Source of the DNA: Chloroflexi bacterium OHK40
GTDB lineage: Bacteria > Chloroflexota > Chloroflexia > Chloroflexales > Chloroflexaceae
Direction: 5' to 3'
Length of the DNA: 57,544 nt
Assembly (NCBI GenBank): GCA_004367505.1
Contig: SFCB01000079.1
Location: 1-57,544, forward strand
Shown: positions 52,368 through 57,544 of the stretch, piece by piece
How positions within the stretch are numbered: the first letter of the stretch is position 1
Layout of the letters: each line of letters starts with the position of its first letter
Notes under the pieces: model-generated
What the model saw: the letters and a program-made list of their open reading frames with translations, nothing else
Database searches by the model: none
What the model was told of the DNA's origin: nothing
Made by a program: the position numbers and the translations under genes

Positions 52368-53483
52368 ATGTCACTGCTCGATACCCTCGGTGTTCGACGG
52401 GTGATCAACGCCGACGCGCGTCTGACGCGCCTGGGTGGCTCGCTGATGCCGCCCGAGGTACGCGCCGCGATGGAGGATGCCGCCCGGGCCTACGTGGATA
52501 TGTTCGAGTTGCAGGAGGCCGTTGGCCGTCGCCTTGCCGAGCTGACGCGCAACGAGGCCGCCTTTGTCTGCACCGGGGCGGCGGCGGGCCTTTTCCTCGC
52601 CGCCCTCGCATGCATGGCCGGCGCCAGCCCGGAGCGGATCGCGCGCCTGCCGCTTCTCGACGGCTGCCGCGATGAGATCGTGATCCATCGCGCCCACCGC
52701 GTGCCTTACGACCAGGCGGTGCGGCTCGCGGGCGCGCGACTGGTGGAGATTGGCAACCACGGGCCGCCCACGCCCGAGGAGCTAGCGGCGGCGATCGGGT
52801 CGCGTACGGCGGCCGTACTCTATGTGGCCGGTGCACACCTCGCCGGTGGCGCGCTGCCGCTGCCGGAGGTGGTGGCTGTGGCCCGCGCCCATGGCCTGCC
52901 AGTGATCGTTGACGCGGCTGCGCAGCTACCCCCGCCCGAGAACCTCTGGCGCTTCACGCGCGATCTCGGCGCCGATCTGGCGATCTTTAGCGGGGGCAAA
53001 GATCTGGCCGGCCCGCAGGCCAGCGGCCTGATTGTGGGCCAGGCGGGGCTAGTCGCGGCCTGCGCCGCCCACGCCGCGCCCCACCAGCGCCTCGGCCGGC
53101 CGATGAAGGTAGGCAAGGAGGAGTTGGCCGGTCTGCTTGCCGCCGTGGAGCGCTACCTGCGCCTGGATCACGCCGCGCGCATCGCGCGCTTCGAGCAGAT
53201 CGTGGCCGATTGGGTAGCGGCCCTTGACGATGGGGCAGGCGTGCGGGCCCGGCGGGTCTTTCCGAACGAGGCTGGCCAGCCAACCCCCCGGCTGCTCCTC
53301 ACCCTGGATCCGGCCCGCTGCTCGGTGAGCGGGGATGAGCTGCGCCGGCGGCTCTGGGAGGATAGCCCGCGCATCGCTGTGGCGAGCGCCGGTGAGCATG
53401 GCATCTCGCTCACGCCCGATACGCTGGAGCCTGGCGAGGAGCTGCTGGTGGTCGCGGCGATCCAGCGGGTGCTACGAAGGTAG
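52368..53483 (+). CDS. SelA/DgaE-like PLP enzyme
   Basis: A 371-aa fold type I PLP enzyme of the SelA-like group. It begins LGVRRVINADARLTRLGGS, the typical start of D-glucosaminate-6-phosphate ammonia-lyase (DgaE) relatives, has CTGAAAGLFLA for the phosphate cup, IVDAAAQLPP with the PLP aspartate, and FSGGKDLAGPQ with Lys211. It is too short for true selenocysteine synthase and lacks its N-terminal domain. Related enzymes eliminate ammonia from amino sugar acids. It is convergent, 6 bp apart, with an amidohydrolase of the kind often found beside DgaE relatives. Confidence 0.85.
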   Translation: MSLLDTLGVRRVINADARLTRLGGSLMPPEVRAAMEDAARAYVDMFELQEAVGRRLAELTRNEAAFVCTGAAAGLFLAALACMAGASPERIARLPLLDGCRDEIVIHRAHRVPYDQAVRLAGARLVEIGNHGPPTPEELAAAIGSRTAAVLYVAGAHLAGGALPLPEVVAVARAHGLPVIVDAAAQLPPPENLWRFTRDLGADLAIFSGGKDLAGPQASGLIVGQAGLVAACAAHAAPHQRLGRPMKVGKEELAGLLAAVERYLRLDHAARIARFEQIVADWVAALDDGAGVRARRVFPNEAGQPTPRLLLTLDPARCSVSGDELRRRLWEDSPRIAVASAGEHGISLTPDTLEPGEELLVVAAIQRVLRR

Positions 53484-53489
53484 AGGTGT

Positions 53490-54677
53490 TCATCCCTTGC
53501 CCAGGACCCGCCGCTGGTGCTCGGGCAGCGCGGCCCATGGCGCCGGAGGGCGTTCCGCCGCGCGCGGCAGCTCCTGGCCCGCCACCAGGGTTGCCGTGCA
53601 GACGAGGCGCTGGCGGCCTGGCCGGGCCTCCATCGCGACATCGTAGAAGGTGTAGGCGCCCTCCTCGAGCCGGAAGATCGCGATATCAGCTGGCGCGCCG
53701 ATGCCCAGGGTCCCCAGGTCGGGCCGGCCCACAGCCACCGCCGGCCTGCGGGTGGCCCGGTCGATCACCTCGGGCAGGCTCATGCCCAGGTTCAGGAACT
53801 TCGAGAGCGTGGTCGGCAGATCGAACATCGGTCCCTGGACGCTGAGTTGGTGGATGTCGCTGCTGATCACATCGGGGAGCAGGCCCTCGGCCAGGGCCGC
53901 CTCAGCCACGGCATAGCTGAACGACCCACCGCCGTGGCCAGTATCGAGCAGAACACCGCGCTGCCGCAGTTCGTGGGCGAGCGGCGCAAGCCGCCCATCG
54001 GCGGTGAGCAGGCGGTGGTCCCCCCCGGTGAAACAGTGGGTCAGGATGTCGCCTGGCCGCAGGAGCGCCGCGATCGCGGCGATCTCCGGTGGACCGCTGC
54101 CGATATGGACCATCAGCGGCAGCCCGACCCGGTCGGCCAGGGCGCGGGCGAGTTGCAGGGGCCTGATCCCGACGCCACGGGTGGTGTTGCCGTCGATCCG
54201 GGCCTTGATGCCCAGGACGAGGTCGCGGTGCTCCGCGACGATCCGGGCGGCGAGCTCGACATCGCAGTAGTCGAGGTTGCTCAGCTCCCAGGTGGGGGCA
54301 ATCAGGCCGATCGCGGAGAGATTGAGCAACGCGAAGATGCGTACCCGGCTCGGCTCGACGATGTAGCGCCGGAAGCCGGGCAGGCTGTAGGCGCCCGCGC
54401 TCCCGGCGTCGAGCCATGTTGTCACCCCGCTACGCGCGGCGACGGGGTCGGCCTCGATGCCCCAGTAGGTGACGCCCCAGTAGATGTGGGTGTGCAGGTC
54501 GACCAGGCCGGGGGTGACGATCTGGCCATCCGCCTCGATCGTAGCCCGGGCCGTAGACGGATCGATGGCCGGGGCGACAAGAGCGATCCGTCCGTCGCGG
54601 ATCGCGACATCGGCGCGCTCGTCGAGCGCGCTCGCCGGATCGATCACCCGGCCGTGGCGGATGAGCAGGTCGTACAT
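53490..54677 (-). CDS. Amidohydrolase/deacetylase-family metallohydrolase
   Basis: A 395-aa TIM-barrel amidohydrolase (dihydroorotase-like cyclic group). H62-T-H64 in VDLHTHIYWG, Lys in LGIKARID, His in MVHIGSGP, HCFTGGDH and the final metal Asp region around SDIHQLS are present. The sequence style matches the EF_0837/AHA_3915-type family often linked with DgaE-like PLP enzymes, as here across a 6-bp convergent gap. Together they may process an N-acylated amino sugar acid or related compound. ATG 54677 has GAGGAG upstream. Confidence 0.88.
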   Translation of the reverse strand: MYDLLIRHGRVIDPASALDERADVAIRDGRIALVAPAIDPSTARATIEADGQIVTPGLVDLHTHIYWGVTYWGIEADPVAARSGVTTWLDAGSAGAYSLPGFRRYIVEPSRVRIFALLNLSAIGLIAPTWELSNLDYCDVELAARIVAEHRDLVLGIKARIDGNTTRGVGIRPLQLARALADRVGLPLMVHIGSGPPEIAAIAALLRPGDILTHCFTGGDHRLLTADGRLAPLAHELRQRGVLLDTGHGGGSFSYAVAEAALAEGLLPDVISSDIHQLSVQGPMFDLPTTLSKFLNLGMSLPEVIDRATRRPAVAVGRPDLGTLGIGAPADIAIFRLEEGAYTFYDVAMEARPGRQRLVCTATLVAGQELPRAAERPPAPWAALPEHQRRVLGKG

Positions 54678-54780: not shown

Positions 54781-56775
54781 CTACGCCTCCAGATTGAGCC
54801 AGCGAACCTCTTCGGCCGAGAGGGTCACGGCGAGCCCGCCAAGGGAACTGCGCGTCTCAGCGAGGGTACGTGGGCCGATCAGCGGGAAGGTGGGGAAGGG
54901 CTGGTTGAGCACGTAGGCCAGGGCCACCGCGATCGGCGTCACCCCCCGCTCGGCAGCCATGGCCTTCACCCGCTCCAGCCGGCGGAAGTTATCTTCGCTG
55001 TACCAGCAGCGCACGAGCTCCGGGTCGGAGCGATCATCGGGGTGAGCCCGCCCGGTGAAGAAGCCCCGTGCCTGGCTCGACCAGGGGAAGAGGGGTGTCT
55101 GAGTGCGGGCAAGCCACTCGCGCGAGGCCGGGTCGGAGGCGGCGATGCAGCCGGCCCAGACGGGCTCGACCATGCGGGCGAGGCTGAAGTTGTTGCTCAG
55201 GGCGGCGAAGCCCTGTTGGCCGCTCGCGGCGGCATAGGCATTGGCTGCCGCAAAGCGCTCGATCGACCAGTTGGAGGCGCCGAAGACCCGGATGCGCCCG
55301 GCCCGCTGATGGGCATTCAACTCATCGATGAAGGCCTCTACCGGGATCTCCGGATTGTCGCGGTGGAGCATGTAGATATCGACATAATCGGTTTGTAGCC
55401 GCGCGAGGCTCTCATAGAGCTGGCGCGTCAGGTGGGCGGGGGTACAGAAGGGCGTATGGGCGCCCTTATCGAGGATGACAACCTGCTCGCGCAGGCCACG
55501 GTTGCGCACCCAGTGGCCGAGCATCTGCTCGCAGACCCCGCTGGCATAAATGTAGGCGGTATCGAAGCAGTTACCGCCCCAGGCGAAAAAGTCATCGAAC
55601 ATCGCCGCGGCGTGAGGCATCGTAGTCTGGTTATCCACGCCGAGCACCAGGCGCGAGACAGGCTTCTCCAGGCCGGGGATACGGCCATAGGGCATCGGAG
55701 CGTCAGGCCGGACGGCCAGGGGGTGCCCGCTGATGGGGAGGCGCTGCTCGGGGGCATCGGGCAACTCGGCATCGTAGACGAGGCCGATCGCCGCGCGCCA
55801 GCGGTCGAGCGTGCGCATCGTCCCCAGTGTATCCTCCCAGGTCACAGCGGGGGCCTGGCCGTCGGCCAGGTGCTCGGCGACCGCGAGGGCCTCGAGAGCA
55901 TAGGCATTGGCGGGCTCGGTGAGGAACTCCTCGGGCGGAGTGCCATCGTTACGCTGGACCACAATGCGGGCGGGATGGTCGGCGGCGGGGACGAAGGGTT
56001 CAGGCAGGAAGATACTCCCGGCGCTACCATAGATCCGGGCACCCCTATCCATCTGCAGGCGCACACCGGTGGCCACCTGAGCGATGATACCGCCGGGGAA
56101 ACGCAGGACAGCAGCGGTCCACTCATCGACCCGGCTCTCGGCGCCGACATGGCCCAGGGCGACCACCTCGGTGGGCTCGGCGAAAGGCATCCCACGGGCC
56201 GCGCCGGCCACCAGGCGGGCAAACGAGACGGGGTAGCCACCGACGTCGAGAATGCCCCCGCCGCCGAGGTGCTGGTTAAGCAGGCGACCCGAGAGGTTAT
56301 AGGCGCTATCGAAGCTGAAGGCCACCTGGATCGCGCGCACCTCGCCGATCGCACCGGCGCGGATCAGATCTACAAGCCGGGTGATCTGAGGGTGGTGGCG
56401 ATACATATAGGCCTCCATGAGGAAGACCCCGTGGCGCCTGGCGGCCTCAACGATCGTCATCGCCTCGGCGTGGTTGAGGCCCAGGGGCTTCTCGCAGAGG
56501 ATGTGCTTCCCGGCCTCGGCGGCGCGGATGGCCCAGCGCGCATGCAGCGGGTGCGGCACCGCGATATACACAGCCGCCACCCCGGGGTCGGCCAGGAGCG
56601 CCTCGTAGGAAGCGTGGCGGCGCGGCACGTTAAAGGCATCACCGAACTGATCTGCGGCAGACTGGCTCCGACTTGCGACCGCCTCAAGACGGCCCACGCC
56701 GGATGACTGAAGCGCCCGCGCGAAGGTGCGGGCGATGCGACCGGTCCCGAGAAGTCCCCACGCCAGCTGTTCCAC
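54781..56775 (-). CDS. Fused Gfo/Idh/MocA oxidoreductase and aldo/keto reductase
   Basis: A 664-aa protein joining two different NAD(P) enzymes. Residues 1-350 are a Gfo/Idh/MocA oxidoreductase: GLLGTGRIART for the cofactor, CEKPLG with Lys96, and GGGILDVGGYPVSFAR. Residues about 361-664 are an aldo/keto reductase with the full tetrad D405, Y410, K437 and H471 (FDTAYIY, LDKGAH, MLHRDN). Both active sites look intact, so one polypeptide could oxidise and re-reduce a sugar or polyol in two steps. GTG 56775 is the start because AAAGGA lies 7 nt upstream; an ATG at 56799 is less likely. The substrate is unknown. Confidence 0.9.
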   Translation of the reverse strand: MEQLAWGLLGTGRIARTFARALQSSGVGRLEAVASRSQSAADQFGDAFNVPRRHASYEALLADPGVAAVYIAVPHPLHARWAIRAAEAGKHILCEKPLGLNHAEAMTIVEAARRHGVFLMEAYMYRHHPQITRLVDLIRAGAIGEVRAIQVAFSFDSAYNLSGRLLNQHLGGGGILDVGGYPVSFARLVAGAARGMPFAEPTEVVALGHVGAESRVDEWTAAVLRFPGGIIAQVATGVRLQMDRGARIYGSAGSIFLPEPFVPAADHPARIVVQRNDGTPPEEFLTEPANAYALEALAVAEHLADGQAPAVTWEDTLGTMRTLDRWRAAIGLVYDAELPDAPEQRLPISGHPLAVRPDAPMPYGRIPGLEKPVSRLVLGVDNQTTMPHAAAMFDDFFAWGGNCFDTAYIYASGVCEQMLGHWVRNRGLREQVVILDKGAHTPFCTPAHLTRQLYESLARLQTDYVDIYMLHRDNPEIPVEAFIDELNAHQRAGRIRVFGASNWSIERFAAANAYAAASGQQGFAALSNNFSLARMVEPVWAGCIAASDPASREWLARTQTPLFPWSSQARGFFTGRAHPDDRSDPELVRCWYSEDNFRRLERVKAMAAERGVTPIAVALAYVLNQPFPTFPLIGPRTLAETRSSLGGLAVTLSAEEVRWLNLEA

Positions 56776-57079
56776 GACACGGTCCTTTCGCAAGAGCATG
56801 GTGCGCGGAGCTATGATAGCGCAGCCTGTCAAGGCTTGCGCCCACTTGGGGTGCAGGCCTCAGCACAGAATACGGCCGGGTGCGCCCGCGTCAGAGGGGC
56901 TACTCTCACCCGCAGCGTGAGCCGTTGTGAGCGCGGCGGCCGAATCGCGGCGTCGCACGGAACAGCGGGGTGGCTGTGGCAGCAGCGCCGTCTATTTCAT
57001 GTTGGGCGGCCTCAGAGATGACGCTGTTGAACACTTGTGCTACTATATTAGCTACATCCCCAAAGACAAAAGAGTCCGA
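56776..57079. other. 304-bp transition from GC-rich to AT-rich DNA
   Basis: No gene is seen. Base composition falls sharply from about 57035 onward, marking the edge of a foreign segment. Confidence 0.55.
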
Positions 57080-57463
57080 TTATTTTAATCCCAAAGCATA
57101 CTTAATTTTGTTATCAAGTGTTTCACCGGAGGGCAGATTTTTACCAGCAACGAATTGACCCGAAAAATCACGAAGTAGAAAGCGGAGGGTTCGCGTTAAA
57201 CTTAATTGTCTATGCTGTCCAGAAGGCACCGAAATACCAAGATCATATGTAAAAACAGTCATTGTTTCTTTATCAACACTATTTTGCCCAGGCAAACTCC
57301 CAATAATTCTTTCAAATTCTTGATAAACTCGATCAGGCAACACGAAGTATAGACCTCTTTTTACTAAAGAAGACCGAGAGCAAACCAGACCCTTTCTTAT
57401 CAGTTGTGGAATTAGTCGTTTATGTACATTCGCCCAGTTTAGACCATCACTATCCTTGCACTT
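57080..57463 (-). pseudogene. AT-rich foreign gene, 5'-truncated
   Basis: An open frame of 128 codons on the minus strand, ending in KYALGLK, with AT-rich codons unlike every other gene here. A GTG at 57343 could start an 87-aa product, but plausible protein sequence continues upstream (HKRLIPQLIRKGLVCSRSSL, a basic helix-turn-helix-like stretch) with no ATG or ribosome binding site until an in-frame TAA at 57464. The gene thus appears to have lost its 5' part, possibly by insertion of the element next to it. The product is not recognised; a DNA-binding or defence-related protein is possible but unproven. Confidence 0.6.
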
Positions 57464-57473
57464 TTAACCACCG

Positions 57474-57544
57474 CTATGCGGCAAGCTGTCGAACAATGCT
57501 GGCGAAGGCTTCCTGATGCTGAAACTGCTGGCGCAGCCAAGTGA
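57474..57544 (-). mobile_element. Possible transposase C-terminus at right edge
   Basis: A minus-strand frame reads in from the edge and ends at TAG 57474-57476, giving TWLRQQFQHQEAFASIVRQL then AA. Composition is GC-rich again and the sequence resembles the tail of a DDE transposase. Only about 22 residues are visible, so this is tentative. If correct, the insertion end lies between about 57440 and 57474 and has cut the AT-rich gene. Confidence 0.35.

Follow-up and report, generated by a model that had tools for sequence, protein, structure and literature searches.

Among described enzymes with the Gfo/Idh/MocA (GFO) fold, glucose-fructose oxidoreductase (GFOR), which holds its NADP tightly, and aldose-aldose oxidoreductase (AAOR) use one active site for both half-reactions of a redox conversion, and many aldo/keto reductases (AKRs) are aldose reductases. 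DepB (8hwn, 7utf), a 3-keto-deoxynivalenol reductase of the AKR18 family, is described as the reductive half of a two-step oxidation/reduction epimerisation, with an NADPH preference set by Lys217, Arg290, and Gln294 (PMC9427786). The levoglucosan LgdA/LgdC operons and the O-glycoside eliminase operons are described as containing paired sugar oxidoreductases in one cluster, and the levoglucosan cluster also carries a sugar ABC transporter (PMC7676230, PMC10628242).

The gene examined here lies in the window, i.e., the whole stretch of 57,544 nucleotides that was analyzed, and encodes a GFO enzyme and an AKR in one chain. With KijD10-type NADP-dependent GFO enzymes it shares the EKP lysine, the D-x3-Y motif, and the Ser-Arg after strand 2, whereas those enzymes are only approximately 26–31% identical to it, consist of a single domain, and have no AKR in the chain. 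DepB is its nearest solved AKR by both sequence and fold, but DepB is a stand-alone protein whose oxidizing partner is a PQQ enzyme and not a GFO enzyme, and its Gln294 corresponds to Glu in the window protein. GFOR and AAOR resemble it in their GFO fold and in the notion that NADP is recycled with no net redox change, but they have one site, whereas the window protein has two unrelated active sites. The levoglucosan and O-glycoside eliminase systems resemble the window pairing in that clustered, paired oxidoreductases oxidize and reduce a sugar; they differ, as described, in consisting of separate enzymes, with LgdC being a GFO reductase, with an eliminase and a hydratase, and with neither an AKR nor a fusion. 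Both halves of the window protein come from known superfamilies.

One open frame with two oxidoreductase domains

The minus strand between positions 54781 and 56832 is one uninterrupted open frame, which would give 683 amino acids from its first TTG. The alignment of relatives and an upstream AAAGGA indicate that translation likely starts at the GTG at position 56775, giving 664 amino acids; this position is also the end coordinate in the initial annotation, and all residues are counted from this GTG. The features are listed below; conservation refers to alignment A2, which contains 15 fused proteins from several phyla.

54781..56775, minus strand: fused GFO-AKR oxidoreductase gene; 664 amino acids, GTG start, stop at 54781–54783 (single open frame, Pfam, start region conserved in alignments)
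56783..56788, minus strand: AAAGGA, a putative site for ribosome binding read from the sequence, 7 bases ahead of the GTG
55777..56775, minus strand: N-terminal GFO half, residues 1–333 (PF01408 and PF22725, VIA-align fold match)
55693..55776, minus strand: inter-domain linker, residues 334–361, ordered in the model (mean pLDDT 89–92 in the blocks covering residues 331–360)
54784..55692, minus strand: C-terminal AKR half, residues 362–664 (PF00248, 4e-46; VIA-align to DepB 8hwn and 7utf)
56668..56670, minus strand: Arg36, NADP(H)-type, in the AVASR motif that closes strand 2 (Arg in 14 of the 14 rows covering the position, of 15)
56485..56493, minus strand: EKP motif with catalytic Lys96 (invariant, 15/15)
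56233..56247, minus strand: DVGGY motif with Asp177 and Tyr181, the GFO D-x3-Y/H (Asp and Tyr invariant, 15/15)
55546..55563, minus strand: Asp405 to Tyr410 of the AKR tetrad (Asp 15/15, Tyr 14/15)
55465..55467, minus strand: AKR catalytic Lys437 (15/15)
55363..55365, minus strand: AKR catalytic His471, HRDN signature (15/15)

The initial annotation had described a single polypeptide joining a Gfo/Idh/MocA oxidoreductase to an aldo/keto reductase, with no stop or frameshift between the halves. This was borne out, in that the junction is uninterrupted and both sets of Pfam domains are intact, with matches over the cut-offs for GFO_IDH_MocA (PF01408; 1e-23, 84.7 bits), GFO_IDH_MocA_C3 (PF22725; 8e-18, 65.0 bits), and Aldo_ket_red (PF00248; 4e-46, 157.9 bits). 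The key residues it had named (EKP Lys96, Asp405, Tyr410, Lys437, and His471) are right in the 664-residue numbering, and a lack of cofactor binding in one half, which it had considered, did not occur, since both cofactor-binding folds are present. By its domains, its EKP and D-x3-Y motifs, and its fold, the N-terminal half is a member of the Gfo/Idh/MocA oxidoreductase family, and the C-terminal half, with its PF00248 barrel and Asp-Tyr-Lys-His tetrad, is a member of the aldo/keto reductase superfamily. Degeneration of one half was rejected because the catalytic residues are kept in both. In NCBIfam, no model reached its cut-off for the GFO half or the AKR half, and no equivalog was reached; the GFO half scored under the cut-offs of the levoglucosan dehydrogenase and glycoside 3-dehydrogenase models, and the AKR half matched broad-specificity reductases (YdjG methylglyoxal reductase, Tas, and IolS-like). 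The single exception to Tyr410 among the 15 fused proteins was L059 from Geminisphaera, which has His at this position. The Geminisphaera genome G419 (C117 and C185) carries two fusion copies, which are 59% and 54% identical to the window protein.

The structure predicted with AlphaFold2 on A2 had a mean pLDDT of 91.2 and a pTM of 0.90, with zero residues below 50; because of these values, both domains and their mutual placement can be regarded as predicted with confidence. The best 50 Foldseek matches were all GFO-type structures, with KijD10 first. In VIA-align, model residues 2–337 matched dimeric dihydrodiol dehydrogenase (2o48, Z 43.3) and KijD10 (3rc1, Z 40.5), and GFOR (1rye, Z 38.4) and AAOR (5a03, Z 39.0) were also among the nearest GFO structures; over these residues, KijD10, 2o48, AAOR (5a02/5a03), and 1,5-anhydrofructose reductase (2glx) are alike in fold, with Z of 37–43. 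Model residues 359–663 matched DepB (8hwn, Z 33.6, 286 aligned; 7utf, Z 33.6, 281 aligned), in a list consisting mostly of GFO-half matches with the AKR half at ranks 48 and 49 only, so that other AKR families are possible. An AKR family is named at a threshold of about 40% identity, here to AKR18A1, and membership of AKR18 was rejected for the AKR half, whose identity to DepB in the structural alignment is 28–29%.

The residues expected to bear on cofactor choice were not plainly alike in the two halves. In the GFO half, strand 2 ends in Ser/Ala/Thr-Arg in all 14 A2 rows covering this position, and phmmer alignment placed the window ASR motif on the same motif of NADP-dependent KijD10, and window Tyr181 on the tyrosine of the KijD10 DIGVY motif. 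The AKR half has Arg, Arg, and Glu where DepB has Lys217, Arg290, and Gln294 (phmmer alignment, read by eye), and this Glu is invariant in the 15 fused proteins. The evidence for NADPH use by the AKR half is mixed, with basic residues at two of the three determinants and Glu at the third. A cofactor common to both halves is plausible, and only plausible, because the GFO half has the NADP(H)-type Ser-Arg, whereas the AKR half is basic at two of three positions but has Glu at the other.

Distribution and inheritance of the pair

The fusion was found full-length and in one frame in the window genome and 22 others of the 400 Chloroflexota genomes searched, with 51–67% identity in those others; a further Chloroflexota match (G272) was interrupted by a contig end. 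A sequencing or assembly error was therefore rejected as the origin of the fused frame. Of the 41 genomes from the family to which the window genome belongs, 2 had the fusion, namely, the window genome and a 71%-complete draft (G409), in which it lies in two overlapping pieces with the break inside the GFO half and not at the junction. Among 72,556 plasmid records, 315 matched at E 1e-30 and 195 of these had a single site spanning at least 80% of the query; the full-length matches among those listed were all rhizobial, and the fusion occurs on symbiotic plasmids of Sinorhizobium meliloti. The scan of named genomes yielded at least 80 loci, and the matches listed included single-frame fusions in Armatimonadota, Anaerolineae, Verrucomicrobiota/PVC, Rhizobium, Mesorhizobium, Devosia, Chelativorans, SAR86, and Evansella. 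In the family of Rhizobium hainanense, 12 of 121 sampled genomes contained the fusion, in 13 copies. The initial annotation had proposed searching for the same domain order and its gene neighborhoods and had considered that the fusion might be confined to this assembly; instead, full-length, single-frame relatives recur across several phyla, and gene contexts were found for them. Plasmid records label the fusion just "aldo/keto reductase" or "Gfo/Idh/MocA family oxidoreductase", and a search of open-licence papers found no description of a GFO-AKR fusion.

The two enzymes were also encoded by neighboring genes. Of the 135 collected loci, some of which are redundant, 44 were fused, and the others included three adjacent layouts. 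The GFO gene preceded the AKR gene in Paenibacillus, Gracilibacillus, Aquibacillus, Mesobacillus, one alphaproteobacterium, and three genomes of the window's order (L152–L154), where the AKR frame starts near the GFO stop; the AKR gene came first in L084–L086 and L191, and the genes were convergent in L164, L167, and L168. In Paenibacillaceae, the family of Paenibacillus tyrfis, the AKR was found in 86 of 104 genomes, with a GFO gene directly upstream in all of the best 30 loci. Twenty loci were retrieved with longer flanks, some overlapping these best 30; the pair was found in 17, and the remaining three (L262, L265, and L266) had an additional, more divergent AKR that lacks a neighboring GFO gene. 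In Gracilibacillus oryzae (L103, 8996–9894), the AKR partner was split over two frames, by either a frameshift or a sequencing error, and this locus was not counted as a pair. Single genes occurred as well: 24 of the 88 rows of the AKR tree were AKRs without a GFO neighbor, and within the fused clade L070, L180, and L181 look like truly single GFO genes, with no AKR nearby by tblastn, while the single GFO genes L182 and L183 run into contig ends. The existence of single AKRs and single GFOs means that each half can act alone. Overall, the GFO-AKR pairing is a widespread, conserved partnership, fused in some lineages and encoded by neighboring genes in others.

Phylogenetic trees were constructed for each half. 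The AKR tree contained 88 rows, 44 of them fused, and the GFO tree contained 86 of 131 GFO rows, the other 45 being single GFO genes; both excluded the window-genome paralogues (L002–L020), most of the loci refetched with longer flanks, and the near-duplicates L054, L157, and L158. In the AKR tree, 43 of the 44 fused rows and one adjacent pair formed a supported group, and the fused state changed three times over the 88 rows. The Evansella fusion sits apart, among unfused Bacillota pairs, and on this topology the fusion arose at least twice. It was probably also undone at least once, at L073, which lies on a long branch and is unsure in its place. The GFO tree showed the same main groups, with the fused rows more mixed with single GFO genes and nine changes of state. 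The correlation between GFO and AKR distances was r = 0.90 across 64 loci and r = 0.87 for the 20 adjacent pairs, neither value being reached in 2,000 permutations, although species history contributes to this correlation, which would be weak as sole evidence. Taken together, the layouts, trees, and distances support a pairing that is recurrent and evolutionarily coupled.

Genomic context

On annotated rhizobial plasmids, genes for a solute-binding protein, two sugar permeases, and a UgpC-type ATPase come in this order and are followed by the fusion as the final gene; in two annotated stretches, one permease is unlisted in one and the binding protein in the other. These operons occur in three different surroundings, adjoined by AraC- or ROK-type regulators, and a UgpC-type ATPase lay within 1.5 kb upstream of the fusion in 10 of 13 rhizobial loci. 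The S. meliloti operon presumably corresponds to locus tags SMa2303–SMa2313, which we assigned by position, and no named phenotype was found under these tags in the open-licence literature. One Chloroflexota genome had genes for LacI, a solute-binding protein, two permeases, and the fusion in this order, and 17 of 30 loci in Bacillota had an AraC-family regulator gene divergent from the GFO-AKR pair. Glycoside hydrolases were encoded near some loci (GH4 at L053 and L073, GH3 at L064, and an alpha-amylase at L138), and a GH42 beta-galactosidase and a LacY-like MFS transporter were encoded near the pair at L118. Beside the window's own gene there was no transporter or glycosidase gene, and the flanks in several f24 Chloroflexota look like housekeeping synteny (LON-domain, EF-G-like, and kinase genes, by eye from the first residues) and offer no hint of function; the catabolic context therefore comes from distant relatives. 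One f24 flank gene (L137, 10698–11087) had no Pfam match.

Within the window, a gene for a PRK09237-type amidohydrolase (53490–54677, minus strand; NF006689, over the cut-off) starts approximately 100 bases downstream of the fusion stop on the same strand, and is convergent with a gene for a DgaE/SelA-like PLP enzyme (52368–53483, plus strand; TIGR01437, under the cut-off). The PRK09237-type amidohydrolase was present in 2 of the 41 genomes of the window's family, and neither gene stood out as a recurring fusion neighbor in the relatives examined. At the contig end beyond the fusion, the G+C content is approximately 41% at 57000–57544, against approximately 69% just before, and this drop suggests a foreign or mobile stretch.

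Proposed reaction and competing explanations

The gene order, the co-inheritance, and the transporter and regulator contexts support the idea that the two enzymes act on one sugar in two steps; two oxidoreductases that are repeatedly fused or adjacent, and that are controlled by a regulator of the sugar type or follow the genes of a sugar importer, are most easily explained by a common substrate. We propose, with a probability of about one-half, that the protein is a bifunctional sugar oxidoreductase that works through a keto intermediate with recycling of NADP(H). Specifically, the GFO half would use NADP+ to convert a single hydroxyl of a sugar or sugar glycoside taken up by the cell into a keto group, and the AKR half would reduce this intermediate, either from the opposite face or on a different carbon, using the NAD(P)H produced by the GFO half. 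The net result would be a redox-neutral epimerisation or isomerizing conversion to a usable sugar, and the oxidizing and reducing roles may be either way round. The support for this reading includes the nearest solved relatives, the 3-ketoreductase KijD10 for the GFO half and DepB for the AKR half, which act at C3 of a sugar or at a sugar-like position: the GFO half is akin to sugar dehydrogenases and ketoreductases that work on C3, and the AKR half to a ketone reductase that completes an epimerisation by oxidation and reduction. That C3 is also the carbon attacked here is speculative. What the analysis establishes is the intact folds and catalytic residues, the recurrent fusion and adjacency, the co-inheritance, and, in some lineages, the sugar-transporter and AraC-regulator contexts; we infer the reaction, shared intermediate, substrate, cofactor of the AKR half, cofactor sharing, direction, and channeling. 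The idea in the initial annotation that one site oxidizes and the other reduces is still the reading we prefer, although the Glu at the DepB Gln294 position in the AKR half argues against simple NADPH sharing.

The two halves could instead belong to one pathway but not be redox-coupled, with the GFO half acting on a sugar and the AKR half on a different aldehyde or keto compound, each drawing on the cell's cofactor pool. The resemblance of the AKR half to broad-specificity reductases (YdjG, Tas, and IolS-like), the existence of single AKRs and single GFOs, and cofactor determinants that are not clearly alike in the two halves would all suit this explanation, which we nevertheless consider rather unlikely, as a shared intermediate accounts better for at least two fusions, several layouts, and an adjacency that hardly varies in Paenibacillaceae. 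A two-site dismutase, in which the GFO half would convert an aldose to a lactone and the AKR half a second sugar to a polyol with recycling of NADP(H), for example in osmoprotection, would be in keeping with GFOR and AAOR among the nearest GFO structures and with the frequency of aldose reductases among AKRs. It is improbable, because the known GFOR and AAOR require just one active site and the rhizobial operons import one substrate class, with no polyol gene in the annotated stretches.

Least probable among the alternatives would be a levoglucosan-like 3-keto-glycoside route (oxidation, beta-elimination, hydration, and reduction), with one half catalyzing the first oxidation or the last reduction. 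The levoglucosan dehydrogenase and glycoside 3-dehydrogenase models do score, below their cut-offs, and the split pair at L073 adjoins genes for a xylose-isomerase-like TIM barrel, a second GFO enzyme, GH4, and a sugar ABC transporter; the levoglucosan route also pairs two oxidoreductases with NAD recycling (PMC7676230). However, the window-type loci include an AKR, unlike the levoglucosan-type pathways, and their surroundings also differ: except at L073, no eliminase or hydratase homologue was found among the neighbors of the window gene or the other scanned neighbors, and the rhizobial operons consist of a transporter and the fusion only.

If the bifunctional, redox-neutral reading holds, a further and more tentative step would be that the single chain is a self-contained redox epimerase with its own recycled NADP(H), an undescribed class that might occur as an unfused module in most Paenibacillaceae and serve a sugar route in rhizobia, Bacillota, and Chloroflexota. 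No published function was found for this partnership, despite the presence of the AKR in most of the Paenibacillaceae genomes and of the fusion in several phyla and on S. meliloti plasmids. A redox epimerase of this kind would represent a naturally occurring fusion that recycles its cofactor, of use in making rare sugars, and would bring to light a carbon source for rhizobia and soil bacteria.

The Mesobacillus cluster L118 (686–11895), which contains two genes each for GFO enzymes and AKRs and one of the NAD-dependent epimerase family in addition to the GH42 and LacY-like genes, is a good system for substrate testing. A second adjacent AKR/GFO pair was found in the window's genome (L197, contig C98, 4687–6712), with 31% and 27% identity to the window halves, and nearby are genes for a sugar-type solute-binding protein, a further AKR, two aldolases (HpcH/HpaI and DHDPS-like), and a class-III aminotransferase. 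A Listeria monocytogenes record (L159, 7980–8933) has a single AKR of the window's AKR clade in an operon with genes for a BglG antiterminator, lactose/cellobiose PTS subunits, glucosamine-6-phosphate deaminase, and a sugar phosphate isomerase.
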